NCBI GenBank assembly: GCA_903883945.1
Contig: CAISCV010000280.1
Coordinates: 1-39,375 of the forward strand
Origin: an uncultured Chitinophagaceae bacterium
Lineage (GTDB): Bacteria; Bacteroidota; Bacteroidia; Chitinophagales; Chitinophagaceae
Direction: 5' to 3'
DNA: 39,375 nucleotides
Shown: one piece after another, positions 7,511-39,375 of the stretch
How the letters are laid out: every line of letters begins with the position of its first letter
Numbering within the stretch: the first letter of the stretch is position 1
Program-made: the position numbers and the translations under genes
Notes under the pieces: model-generated
What the model saw: the letters and a program-made list of their open reading frames with translations, nothing else
Databases searched by the model: none
Told to the model about the DNA's origin: nothing

Positions 7511-7664
7511 TTAATGCAATGAAAGCAGGCTAATTGCAGTTAAAAGCTTCTTGCCTACAAGGTTTTTAATCTATTAATCAAAATAAACAGTACTGTTTTT
7601 ACTTTAAACAGATGTGTCAGAGAAATAAACAGATGTGTTTAAAGAATAAACAGATGAATAAATA

Positions 7665-7692
7665 AAATAAACAGATGTGTTTTAGAAATAAA
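7665..7692. repeat. Left arm of a perfect 28-bp inverted repeat inside the 21-bp array
   Basis: Bases 7665-7692 are the exact reverse complement of 7785-7812, with a 92-bp loop. The arms span units 4-6 and 10-11 of the array and read across unit boundaries. Confidence 0.9.
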
Positions 7693-7784
7693 TAGATCTG
7701 TTTTTACTTTAAACACACCTATTTAAAGAATAAACAGATGTATCAGAAAAATAAACACATCTATTTAAAGAATAAATAGGCTTG

Positions 7785-7812
7785 TTTATTTCTAAAACAC
7801 ATCTGTTTATTT
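7785..7812. repeat. Right arm of the perfect 28-bp inverted repeat
   Basis: Exact reverse complement of 7665-7692 (28 of 28 bases). The pair could fold into a long stem in single-stranded DNA or RNA. Confidence 0.9.
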
Positions 7813-7855
7813 GGGGATTAGGGCAGTTTTACGATGGGAGAAGCGGCAAAAACCC

Positions 7856-7940: not shown

Positions 7941-7973
7941 AGATTTGGCAACTTTTAAAAAGTTGCCAAATCT
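7941..7973. repeat. REP-like hairpin 2
   Basis: Arms of 16 bp (7941-7956 and 7958-7973) are exact reverse complements separated by one base; the physical loop would be a few A/T bases. The core is TTTGGCAACTTTT. It is followed by a TTTAAA-containing linker and a second copy of GAAAGAAAGTAGATTT at 8004-8019, so hairpin plus linker occurs twice as a module. Confidence 0.85.
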
Positions 7974-8078: not shown

Positions 8079-8387
8079 ATGATTGAAAGAGAAAAAATAT
8101 CATCATACTTAAACGAACTTCTTGATGTGATAACTCTTTGTATAAACAATACTGAACATAAAAAAGATGTACGTATTTATCAGAGGGATTATCTTTTTAT
8201 TGAAAATTTTTTATCTGATATTTCAAATCCGGATATAGAAGTAGAGGATATTTTAAATCATATATTGGAAGATCAAACAGCTAAAATAATGACAGATTAC
8301 TGGCGGGAAGGTAAATATGGGGAAATGGAATGTTTTGCTTTTTACAAACTTCGTGATAAAGTACGATTATTAATAGTTAATGAATAA
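8079..8387 (+). CDS. Small acidic protein of unknown function
   Basis: A 102-residue cytosolic-looking protein (no signal or membrane segment) that I do not recognise. It appears all-helical: an amphipathic N-terminal helix (EKISSYLNELLDVITLCINN), a middle helix rich in Asp/Glu/Ile (IEVEDILNHILEDQTAK), then an aromatic stretch (MTDYWREGKYGEMECFAFYKLRDKVR). The base composition is clearly more A+T-rich than in flanking adk and gatB, and AGGAAA lies just before the ATG. It sits isolated between a repeat block and gatB. Small acidic helical proteins in such places are sometimes immunity proteins or cargo-type orphans, but nothing here proves that. The continuous frame, composition and start context argue that it is a real gene. 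Confidence 0.6.
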   Translation: MIEREKISSYLNELLDVITLCINNTEHKKDVRIYQRDYLFIENFLSDISNPDIEVEDILNHILEDQTAKIMTDYWREGKYGEMECFAFYKLRDKVRLLIVNE

Positions 8388-35993: not shown

Positions 35994-36001
35994 CAAAAGT
36001 A
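35994..36001 (-). promoter_or_regulatory. -7 promoter box of the enoyl-CoA hydratase gene
   Basis: Minus-strand TACTTTTG matches TAnnTTTG exactly and ends 8 nt before the ATG. Confidence 0.5.
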
Positions 36002-36140
36002 GTAAGTAATAAGTAGTAAGTAAAGCGTATTGTGTGGTAGGTTATAAGTAGGAAGTTTCTGCTTGCAGGTTACTGGTTGATGGTTACTGGTATTTAATAA
36101 CTTGAAACCTGAATCCTGCATCCAGTAACCTGAAACTTGC
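36002..36140. repeat. Word-repeat spacer with inverted repeat
   Basis: Built from recurring short words: AGTAAGTA/AGTAGTAAGTAA near 36001-36021, GGTTACTGG at 36068-36076 and 36082-36090, and the inverted CCAGTAACC. CAGGTTACTGG (36066-36076) and CCAGTAACCTG (36122-36132) are exact reverse complements. TCCTGCA and AACTTGC also occur in the spacer at 11285-11300. Confidence 0.5.
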
Positions 36141-36616: not shown

Positions 36617-37270
36617 ATGTTACAGGCAAAAGGCATCAAAAAGAAGTATGGCTCGCTAGAAGTATTAAAGGGGGTTGATCTGAATGTAGAAAAAGGCGAA
36701 ATTGTATCTATTGTAGGCAGTTCGGGGGCTGGCAAAAGCACGTTGCTACATATTCTGGGCTCTTTAGACACGCCTGATGCAGGAACAATCTTTATTAATA
36801 ACGAGCCGGTACATTTATTAAAAGGAAGAAAGCTTGCGGCATTCAGAAATAAAAAGATAGGCTTCGTTTTTCAGTTTCATCACCTGTTGCCAGAATTTAA
36901 TGCCATAGAAAATGTATCTATCCCGGGTTGGATTGCAGGAACGAGTAAAGGAAAGGTAAAAGAAGAAGCGACCAGACTGCTAAACCTACTGGGTTTGGGA
37001 GAGCGGCTAGACAATAAACCCAACCAGTTAAGTGGTGGCGAGCAACAACGGGTGGCTGTGGCAAGGGCATTGATTAATAACCCTAGTATTGTATTTGCCG
37101 ATGAACCAACTGGAAACCTGGATAGCGCTAATGCTGAAGGACTGCATCATTTGTTTGTAGAACTAAGAGATACACTCCTACAAACCTTTTTGATTGTGAC
37201 GCATAACGAAGAACTGGCTGCCATGAGCAACCGAACTATTTACATGAAAGATGGGAGAATCATTCAGTGA
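36617..37270 (+). CDS. lolD: ABC transporter ATP-binding protein, LolD family
   Basis: A 217-residue ATPase that powers LolCE-type release of lipoproteins from the inner membrane. Walker A is GSSGAGKST (about 34-42), the Q-loop is FVFQFHHLLPEF, the ABC signature is LSGGEQQRVAVARAL, Walker B is SIVFADEPTGNLDS and the switch histidine is in IVTHNEEL. The FQFHHLLPEF and DEPTGNLD forms are typical of the LolD/MacB group (MJ0796-like). The MacB-like relatives cannot be fully excluded because the permease is not adjacent, but length without extra domains fits LolD. It has its own promoter and converges on the S41 peptidase gene across an 85-bp spacer. Confidence 0.88.
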   Translation: MLQAKGIKKKYGSLEVLKGVDLNVEKGEIVSIVGSSGAGKSTLLHILGSLDTPDAGTIFINNEPVHLLKGRKLAAFRNKKIGFVFQFHHLLPEFNAIENVSIPGWIAGTSKGKVKEEATRLLNLLGLGERLDNKPNQLSGGEQQRVAVARALINNPSIVFADEPTGNLDSANAEGLHHLFVELRDTLLQTFLIVTHNEELAAMSNRTIYMKDGRIIQ

Positions 37271-37355
37271 TGAATCATTAGTGATGAATGATTAATCTAG
37301 GAAATGAAGCAACTCCTTATTTAACACTAAATGTTAAACACTAATCATTAAATAA

Positions 37356-38948
37356 CTACCGTAGCACTTCCAACGCCTTCTTCACCGTACTGTCCGATTG
37401 ATTTTCTACTTCGTAATACCCTTCTGTTTGGGCTACCTGTCTGGCCATTAAGGCTTGCATCCGTTGTAGGATGGTTGCTTTTTCGGCAGGGGTTACTTCC
37501 GAAATATTTATCCCATCTCTTTGTAAAGTCATTGCTTTCAAAGCCGCCCATTCTGTTTCACCGGGTTTAAATTGCTGTGCTAATTGCGCCACATTGGTTA
37601 CTTTTTGAAACTTTGCTTTGTTGGCAATGAAATATTTGTAAACAAAAATGTGTAAAGTATTCCTGAAATAGAACCTGGTATAAGCTATAGTAGATTTAGT
37701 AGTATCTATCGGTACAAAAATGTCAGGCGTAATGCCGCCACCACCATATACCGTGTGCCCACCGGGGGTTTTGTAGGCTTTCCCCTTTGTGTTACTACTG
37801 TCTGCTTTCAACATCTCGCCATCATGGTAACGGTTCAATAATTCATCTTCATAATCCTTTCTGCTTTTATTGGAATATGGCTTCTGAATGTTCCTTCCCA
37901 AAGGGGTAAAATACCTTGCTACGGTAAGTCGTACTGCGCTTCCGTCGCTTAGTTGAAACTGTTGTTGTACCAGTCCCTTGCCAAAACTTCTTCTTCCAAT
38001 AATGGTTGCCCTATCCCAATCTTGCAGGGCGCCACTTAGTATTTCGCTCGCACTAGCCGAGGATTCATCAATTAATACTGCCAAAGGGCCTTTCTCAAAA
38101 AGACCTTCTTTCTTACTTTTATATTCGTTTCTTGGCGATTCGTTGCCTTCGGTATATACAATCATCTTATCCTCGTCCAGAAACTCATCCGCAATAGCAG
38201 TTGCTTCGGTAACAAGACCGCCCCCATTACCCCGAAGGTCTAAGATGAGCTTTTTCATCCCTTGTTTCTGTAGTTTTTCCAGGTTCTGCATAAACTCCTC
38301 ATAGGTTCTGTCGCCAAATTTGTTCAACTTTATGTAGCCCGTTTGTGGCGCAATAATATACGCTGCATCGATGGTGGGTACCGGAATATTTCCTCTGATA
38401 ACGGTGATGTTCATCACTTTGCCATCTCTTAGAAGGGTTATTTTAACGGACGATTCAGCAGGACCTCTCAGGTTTCTTCTGATTTCTTCGGGATTCATCT
38501 TTTTTCCCGTAAGGTTCGTGGTATCATTTGCTTTCAACAGCATATCGCCCACCTGTAAACCTGCTTTTTCGCCGGGGCCATCCTTAATAACGTTCATTAC
38601 GTTTACCGTGTCATTAAATATTTGATACTCTACCCCGATGCCCTGAAAGCTTCCCATCAGGTCGTCGTTCACATCATTCAGGTATTTTGAAGGGATATAG
38701 GCAGAGTGTGGATCGAGGTGCGAAAGCAGGTTATCAATCACCAATTGACTGATGCTATCGGTCTTTTCGGGATCCACATATCGTTCTTTAATCAGGTCTA
38801 GCACTTCTTGCACCGAATTCTTTTTGCCGCTGCCCATAAAGAAGGCACTATTAGTTTTGTCGTGCAGTTGATAGCCAATAATCATCCCAACAACCATCAG
38901 CGCCGATAAAAGAAGGGGCAACCAGACCTGTAATTTTTTATTAGCCAT
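37356..38948 (-). CDS. S41 family C-terminal processing peptidase
   Basis: A 530-residue periplasmic protease tethered by one N-terminal membrane helix (about 8-26: VWLPLLLSALMVVGMIIGY). Then come an N-terminal helical segment, a PDZ domain (about 100-185: GIGVEYQIF, GPGEKAGLQVGDMLL) and the peptidase core. The catalytic serine lies in DESSASASEIL (about 295-303) and the lysine is K324 in RSFGKGLVQQ. A long C-terminal helical tail ends the protein. Such CtpA/Prc-like enzymes trim or degrade envelope proteins from the C-terminus. The start is ATG at 38948, after a TATATTTG promoter; the longer frame begins within the 21-bp array and is rejected. It converges on lolD. Confidence 0.92.
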   Translation of the reverse strand: MANKKLQVWLPLLLSALMVVGMIIGYQLHDKTNSAFFMGSGKKNSVQEVLDLIKERYVDPEKTDSISQLVIDNLLSHLDPHSAYIPSKYLNDVNDDLMGSFQGIGVEYQIFNDTVNVMNVIKDGPGEKAGLQVGDMLLKANDTTNLTGKKMNPEEIRRNLRGPAESSVKITLLRDGKVMNITVIRGNIPVPTIDAAYIIAPQTGYIKLNKFGDRTYEEFMQNLEKLQKQGMKKLILDLRGNGGGLVTEATAIADEFLDEDKMIVYTEGNESPRNEYKSKKEGLFEKGPLAVLIDESSASASEILSGALQDWDRATIIGRRSFGKGLVQQQFQLSDGSAVRLTVARYFTPLGRNIQKPYSNKSRKDYEDELLNRYHDGEMLKADSSNTKGKAYKTPGGHTVYGGGGITPDIFVPIDTTKSTIAYTRFYFRNTLHIFVYKYFIANKAKFQKVTNVAQLAQQFKPGETEWAALKAMTLQRDGINISEVTPAEKATILQRMQALMARQVAQTEGYYEVENQSDSTVKKALEVLR

Positions 38949-38981
38949 AAGTGTGCTTGTTCTAACCTTTGATAAAGTCGG

Positions 38982-39010
38982 CAAATATATCTGTAATCCC
39001 GCATTGGCAA
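38982..39010 (-). promoter_or_regulatory. Promoter of the S41 peptidase gene
   Basis: Minus-strand TTG (39010-39008), 18 nt, then TATATTTG (38989-38982), an exact -7 box, 33 nt before the ATG at 38948. The 21-bp array begins 28 bp upstream of the -33 element. Confidence 0.65.
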
Positions 39011-39038
39011 TAGGGATAGTAGTAGTACACATTGGCGT

Positions 39039-39290
39039 TTTAGGGATAACTTTTGTTGTAACCGAGGTCTCGGTAGTCGTTTCCGAGGTCACGTTTGTCG
39101 CATCCGAGGTCTAGTTTGTTACATCCGAGGTCTCGGATGTCGCATAAGTTCAAGCTTTTGTCATGTAAGTTCAAGCTTTTGTCGCATAAGTTCAAGCTTT
39201 TGTCGCAAAAGTTCAAGCTTTTGTCACATAAGTTATAGCTTTTGTCGCATAAGCTATAGCATTTATCACTAAAGTTCAAGCAAATGCAGT
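39039..39290. repeat. Tandem array of twelve 21-bp units, two subfamilies
   Basis: Units start at 39039, 39060, 39081, 39102, 39123, 39144, 39165, 39186, 39207, 39228, 39249 and 39270 with no slip. Units 2-5 carry CCGAGGTC-type cores; in 39060 and 39123 the core is the palindrome-like CCGAGGTCTCGG (5-bp arms). Units 6-9 carry AGTTCAAGCTTTT and units 10-11 have TATAGC cores. Nearly all end in TGTCGC or TGTCAC. An open frame with a DKSLNLC-like heptad arises because 21 is a multiple of 3, but it has no start context or length expected of a gene. The array is directly upstream of the S41 promoter. Sequence is unrelated to the array at 7584-7814, yet the period, palindromic cores and modular tails are alike. 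Confidence 0.93.
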
Positions 39291-39375
39291 ATTACTATGG
39301 TTAAAAATAGAGATTGAGAATAATTATGATGAATCAATTGGAAACAAATACTATATTTAAACCTTAATTAGCATA
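39291..39375. other. Window end, no feature seen
   Basis: A+T-rich sequence after the array with no recognisable repeat unit, hairpin or coding start. The 21-bp periodicity fades after 39290. Confidence 0.4.

Follow-up and report, generated by a model that had tools for sequence, protein, structure and literature searches.

The Array at the adk Locus

The window, by which we mean the whole 39,375-nucleotide stretch analysed here, is contig C280 of genome G000 (4.09 Mb in 314 contigs), whose nearest named Adk records come from Chitinophagaceae MAGs, the top record, isolate Jr-28aug17-252, being 100% identical in Adk. At 7584..7814, with no strand assigned, lie 11 tandem units of 21 bp, the unit being TAAACA-N4-TGTTT followed by a 6-bp tail. 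The neighbors are adk (Pfam ADK) on one side and a 102-aa ORF with no Pfam match on the other, beyond which lies a gene that is presumably gatB. Ten of the 11 units begin with TAA, and the register is exact, with zero slip. At lags of 21, 42, and 84 the array matches itself at 0.63, 0.66, and 0.68, whereas 300 dinucleotide-preserving shuffles of the stretch never exceed 0.47 for lags of 10 to 84, which bears out the slip-free array of 11 units described in an earlier, sequence-only reading.

The core occurs in both orientations, as that reading had it: AAACAGATGTGTTT is present twice, at 7627 and 7669, and a reverse-complement copy starts at 7795. The non-adjacent recurrence of tails also holds as originally stated: units 1 and 6 share TTTTTACTT, units 2 and 8 carry CAGAGAAA/CAGAAAAA, and units 3, 7, and 9 share TTTAAAGAA. 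An exact 28-bp inverted repeat (left arm 7665..7692, plus strand; right arm 7785..7812, minus strand) joins units 4–6 to units 10–11. Adjoining the array is a tail, GGATTAGGGCAGTTTTACGATG (7815..7836, plus strand), that recurs beside same-family arrays on contigs C67, C89, and C78 of the same-genus genome G007; a stretch resembling it on C11 of G006 is known as a listed match only.

All six frames of the array contain stops (3–12 per frame in 76–77 codons), and self-match at lags 7 and 14 (0.25 and 0.24) is not raised; coding and heptamer origins are refuted for this array, in agreement with the earlier judgment that it is noncoding. It is also, as judged then, not a CRISPR, since its units are contiguous and its tails recur in place of a constant repeat with unique spacers. 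With 11 units of 21 bp it qualifies as a prokaryotic satellite, a class defined by four or more tandem units, each 10–200 nt long. Searched against G000, it matches only itself, and it has no plasmid or phage match at E ≤ 1e-5.

Repeats of other kinds are found elsewhere in the window. A REP-like palindrome, AGATTTGGCAACTTTTAAAAAGTTGCCAAATCT, at 7941–7973 is listed many times across the genus, and a nearby block, GATATGCCGAAAGAAAGTAGATTTGT, likewise recurs. Tandem repeats of 7 and 14 bp, of the heptamer kind, lie at 35997–36023, 37257–37294, and 37319–37352, and are also found in more distant relatives. A second block of 21-bp arrays (39031..39303, no strand assigned) consists of TCCGAGGTCTCGGA-type and then AAGTTCAAGCTTTTGTCGCAT-type units, and is unlike the first array in sequence. 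It overlaps the start of an S41 peptidase ORF (37356–39092, minus strand), whose first residues come from array units. DNA similar to this block is present on G000 contigs C162, C67, C173, C96, and C288; on C162 the array is 88% similar over 180 bp to that at the window end, and the flank is similar as well.

Arrays of Unrelated Sequence across the Genus

The sequence-only reading had proposed a search of the genome for further arrays, and these are present, with different sequences. TRF applied to 20 other contig stretches yielded very different sequences with periods of 21, 42, 63, 84, or 126 bp, and one of 22/44. A fixed-lag detector written for the survey was run on sampled stretches rather than whole genomes. 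It found 23 arrays in 431,945 bp of the array's own genome, 52 in 663,320 bp of the genus, and 11 in 1,588,309 bp of more distant relatives, with two more in a further 277,359 bp. A few genus stretches were chosen for earlier matches on their contigs (contig C2 of G001, for instance, contributes an adk array), and the 73 named loci L070–L142 were classed as outside the genus solely by an Adk identity of at most 82%.

With arrays inside ORFs left out (3/23 in the own genome, 13/52 in the genus), the 1.1 Mb sampled from G000 and 12 same-genus genomes contains 46 noncoding arrays of the 21-bp class, with one family counted separately at two G007 loci (L149 and L211). The 1.87 Mb of more distant relatives contains none by the same detector, because both outside arrays with a period of 21 bp or a multiple (L072 and L114) sit in ORFs; the single outside noncoding array that TRF places at 21 bp (L090) is a heptamer array. 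Within these samples the noncoding class is restricted to the genus. The three best sampled genomes (15 arrays in 432 kb of G000, 12 in 240 kb of G006, and 9 in 186 kb of G007) have 35–50 such arrays per Mb, which extrapolates to the order of 140–230 per genome; the small samples (14–40 kb) of G005, G010, and G012 have none.

Several individual loci stand out. A dispersed family with a 42-bp period (AATAAACCCCACCCGACTGAC) occurs at L032 (7148–7389), L051 (441–669), and L190 (899–1136), and its homology extends ~30 bp past the array, beginning near GTGCCAAATA. In a more distant relative, whose Adk is 83% identical, positions 8207–9018 of L069 form an 800-bp mosaic of successive 22–24 bp repeat families. 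Positions 373–643 of L068 carry GTATG-N2-CATAC palindromes, one unit of which reads GTTTG...CAAAC, changed on both sides; this stretch is open in one frame. The motif TATTTGGG was found at array ends at eight loci against 0.3 expected, but these reduce by eye to about five families and all 8-mers had been tested, and we make no claim for a common end motif.

A Pitch of Two Helical Turns

The period varies far less than the sequence. Setting aside ten of the 59 noncoding own and genus arrays that have periods of 7–14 bp, 45 of the 49 with a best period of at least 19 bp have 20.4–21.6 bp per unit, where a uniform distribution would place 23% of them; the other four have periods of 20, 44, 122, and 130 bp. 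Phasing at two turns of B-DNA, first suggested for the window array, is supported, and the genus band includes periods that are not multiples of three (41, three times; 62; 82, twice; 83; and 85). No array of the 49 has a period within 1 bp of 31.5, 52.5, 73.5, 94.5, or 115.5. TRF places 15/18 own-genome arrays and 24/26 genus arrays in the band on the same samples, and among these two groups it lists one 32-bp and one 28-bp array; outside the genus it places 3/11, namely one heptamer array and two long-period repeats.

This band fits a helical ruler better than it fits codons or heptads. That 21 is 3 × 7 invites an origin in seven-residue coding repeats or in tripled heptamer arrays; seven of the 53 arrays of the period class do lie inside ORFs, and heptamer arrays exist both within the genus and outside it. 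But periods of 41, 62, 82, 83, and 85 are divisible neither by 3 nor by 7, and as an account of the class such an origin seems to us close to untenable.

Slips of register are few: three phase jumps were found across the 46 arrays, and 44 arrays are free of them. In noncoding DNA aligned between G000 and G001, 14 indels accompany 122 substitutions. Simulation yielded 0.17–0.9 jumps for each detected array under neutrality and 0.03–0.12 when the arrays were free of slips, compared with 0.065 seen, a difference that we treat as a depletion of uncertain size, since the simulation shows the count to be biased for diverged arrays.

Dyad Symmetry, Folding, and Covariation

When each array was folded on its own period and its columns permuted, dyad symmetry exceeded the permutations (p ≤ 0.05) in 30 of 46 noncoding arrays, against two of seven in ORFs; for a 14-bp core the figures are 21/46 and 3/7. 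Consensus cores include GACTC-AGGT-GAGTC, AAAATGGCCATTTC, AACCTCTAGAGGTT, and AATTCAATTGAATT. A dyad in a tandem array implies another at each half period, so that a period of 21 bp has one dyad per turn and a period of 42 bp one per two turns. The window family can be followed through 58 unit rows from six arrays (one in G000, four in G007, and one in G002). TAAACA is well kept in these rows, TGTTT less so (its G in 62% and its last two T in 71%), and the four central bases are freer.

Single strands of 25 of the 46 arrays fold better than their column-permuted copies (plus strand, z < −2), an excess that the dyads and inverted copies would give. Folding of this kind, together with palindromes in both orientations, mosaic tails, and the dispersal of some families with shared ends, is what one might expect of REP/BIME-like hairpin DNA, mobile or amplified through single-strand copying by a tyrosine transposase. 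Within arrays of the window family, the palindromes do stand both ways round. But the consensus sequences differ from array to array and the window array matches only itself in G000, unlike the REP/BIME pattern of a single palindrome repeated many times over in a genome, and matches to Y1_Tnp (PF01797) are few: one weak match in G000, 0–7 in the other 12 genomes, and up to nine in order-level relatives, with no enrichment in the genus. We consider this origin unlikely.

The window array also folds strongly as RNA (z −10.6), and the arrays might be transcribed as structured RNAs acting as decoys, stabilizers, or terminators. The fold is, though, equally strong with DNA parameters (z −10.8), and six Rfam matches at E ≤ 1 are all far below gathering scores. 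Compensation within units is absent from the 17 of 29 period-21 arrays that have a clear dyad (573 complementary pairs versus 573.3 expected), and the window array itself falls below expectation (38 versus 42.9). The block at 39031, which lies outside this 17-array cut, does have an excess of pairs (41 versus 29.8, z 4.2) in line with an RNA, which perhaps stems from the mixing of two unit kinds. A role as RNA, against which the lack of orientation preference described below also counts, appears very improbable.

Covariation in the window family, counted with four of the 58 unit rows left out, is confined to the central pair, complementary in 36 of 45 distinct units against a shuffled mean of 19.9, and could stem from the presence of two variants of the core, in two orientations; the pair just outside it is under expectation (14/45 versus 19.0). 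Inversion of cores in register was sought in 48 dyad-bearing arrays, drawn from a set of loci to which 13 had been added by hand. For 10-bp cores differing at two or more positions, 21 pairs were found versus 8.7 with permuted halves (reached in 0/200), but at four or more positions the excess fades (six pairs versus 3.3; 28/200) and is reversed for 4-bp centers (three versus 6.4) and 6-bp centers (two versus 4.6). We do not claim such inversion as a finding. In most arrays the longest exact direct repeat exceeds the longest inverted one.

Two enzymatic causes were considered and set aside. Loss of SbcD does not sort with the arrays, an SbcD match above cut-off being missing from G000–G007 and G012, present in G008–G011, and missing from 17 of 22 other-genus genomes. 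Repeats made by a reverse transcriptase would call for such a gene in array-bearing genomes, and PF00078 has no match in the draft genomes G000, G001, G003, G004, G006, G007, and G011, all of which bear noncoding arrays of the 21-bp type in their sampled stretches.

Turnover at a Single Locus

The adk locus of G001 aligns with the window on both flanks (91% on the adk side, 87% just past the array), and between these same flanks, downstream of adk, it carries a different 21-bp array of GGTGTAACAAATAAATTAAATGATACACC-like units. The two arrays are no more alike than chance would give (86 of 500 controls with permuted columns reach the score), and across the 13 genus genomes the G001 array finds only weak or short matches, in G002 and G007. 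At one locus, an array can be replaced by an unrelated array of the same pitch. Turnover is not universal: at L038 the listed match to G001 is 99% identical over a stretch that takes in the array; the G007 match to this locus ends before the array, and none was detected there.

The window array does have a clear relative in G007 (score 163 versus a null maximum of 37). Window positions 7577–7847, comprising array and tail, align with C67 of that genome in 271 gap-free columns, 66 of which differ, where the yardstick of 14 indels to 122 substitutions predicts ~7.6 gaps. That G007 array lies upstream of what is presumably gatB, with what we take to be a recA-like ORF on its far side, and there is no adk within the 6-kb stretch.

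With genes counted as ORFs of at least 100 codons, 18 arrays lie between tandem genes, 14 between divergent and five between convergent ones, and nine at contig edges; array-free gaps of at least 300 bp number 58, 44, and 22, respectively, so arrays show no orientation preference. This lack of preference speaks against a single dedicated segregation or operator site, a segregation site being one of the roles offered for the window array from its letters, and the presence of unrelated noncoding arrays of the same type at 35–50 per Mb in the three best sampled genomes leaves such a role unsupported. A repeat-building process, also offered there, may be involved.

Much of this would also be expected of neutral minisatellites, formed by slippage and unequal exchange in a duplication-prone lineage, with palindromes as by-products of hairpins or inverted copying and with no function. 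Replacement at one locus, the local nature of the sequences, direct repeats that outrun inverted ones, the indifference to gene orientation, and the lack of within-unit compensation over 17 arrays all agree with it. It is the main rival, but slippage offers no reason known to us for 20.4–21.6 bp in 45 of 49 arrays, nor does it account for the gap-free G000–G007 alignment or for the detector's finding no such arrays outside the genus, and on balance we regard it as doubtful.

A Ruler for DNA?

Slippage or coding repeats are the usual explanations for satellites in bacteria. We tentatively favor, at somewhat less than even confidence, the reading that the window array belongs to a lineage-specific class of intergenic minisatellites whose two-turn pitch is kept by a dimeric protein or enzyme. 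Members of the class differ in sequence; common to them are a repeat length close to two B-DNA turns (21 bp, in some cases 20 or 22) and, for roughly two thirds, dyad symmetry. They would grow, we infer, by tandem copying with some in-register inverted copies. The constant pitch would come from a putative homodimeric DNA-binding protein, or from an enzyme that builds repeats by way of such a dimer; the dimer would load on dyads two turns apart, and slipped arrays would be lost or not made. Any benefit to the cell would be as conjectural as the identity of the protein.

In favor of this dimer-based reading are the narrow period band by both methods, the excess of dyads, the steady register with its gap-free G000–G007 alignment, the replacement at the adk locus, and the well-kept first arm of the window family. 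The 16 of 46 arrays with no significant dyad count against it, as do the less-kept second arm of that family, the lack of compensation within units, the partial bias of the slip count, the 28- and 32-bp arrays listed by TRF, and the indifference to gene orientation. The unrelated sequences argue against one sequence-specific binder, and the factor predicted here would accordingly read shape or symmetry more than sequence. A further possibility, which we hold less probable than the dimer, is that a sequence-indifferent, helix-measuring activity or a protein lattice builds and keeps palindromic arrays at well over 100 places per genome, the geometry being inherited and the sequence free; such a lattice might set one dyad per two turns, or one per turn.

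Unrelated arrays at one two-turn pitch across a genus suggest a physical ruler in the cell, and the genus offers dozens of natural replicates for finding what measures the DNA. The swap at the adk locus, between arrays that agree in pitch but are unrelated in sequence, recalls the turnover of eukaryotic satellites.

Comparison with Known Systems

We found no description of a genus-wide 21-bp dyad plan in the literature searched, whose coverage excluded most subscription journals. ParMRC plasmid centromeres consist of 20-bp direct repeats, with one site per plasmid. Like the arrays, they place sites in tandem at a spacing of about two turns, which suits binding by a dimer; unlike them, they are single, and the extrapolated ~140–230 arrays per genome disfavor a plasmid centromere of the parC/ParR type.

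The TAACTGA heptamer direct repeats, also found in five Bacteroidetes, are like our arrays abundant, intergenic, and tandem, but have a 7-bp unit and a single sequence, according to the portion of the source available (PMC4679880). REPs, in the available part of their description, are alike in sequence throughout a genome and accompany a RAYT gene (PMC2817692). Like the arrays, BIMEs and REPs lie outside genes, change quickly, and contain palindromic units facing either way, with segments between them that recur; the arrays differ in that their consensus sequences are not shared and Y1 transposases are not enriched.

The BrickBuilt minisatellite-MITE of Porphyromonas gingivalis has one 23-nt sequence, 19 copies, and inverted-repeat ends, as set out in the accessible part of its report (PMC4596501). 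It belongs to the same phylum, is intergenic, and joins tandem units to a tail subunit, much as the window family carries its tail at several loci, although that shared tail is seen on one side of the array only. Here, in contrast, the pitch is fixed while the sequences are many and unrelated, and dyads are frequent. Among the closest known kinds, with BrickBuilt and the BIMEs, are prokaryotic satellites such as those of Methanosarcina, whose short tandem arrays are numerous, in many cases bear no relation to one another, and in Methanosarcina vacuolata reach 89 per Mb; a fixed two-turn pitch or a dyad plan is not described in the available part of that account (PMC6749651). By unit number and length the window array is likewise a satellite, and the lack of a sequence shared among arrays sets it apart from REPs and BIMEs.
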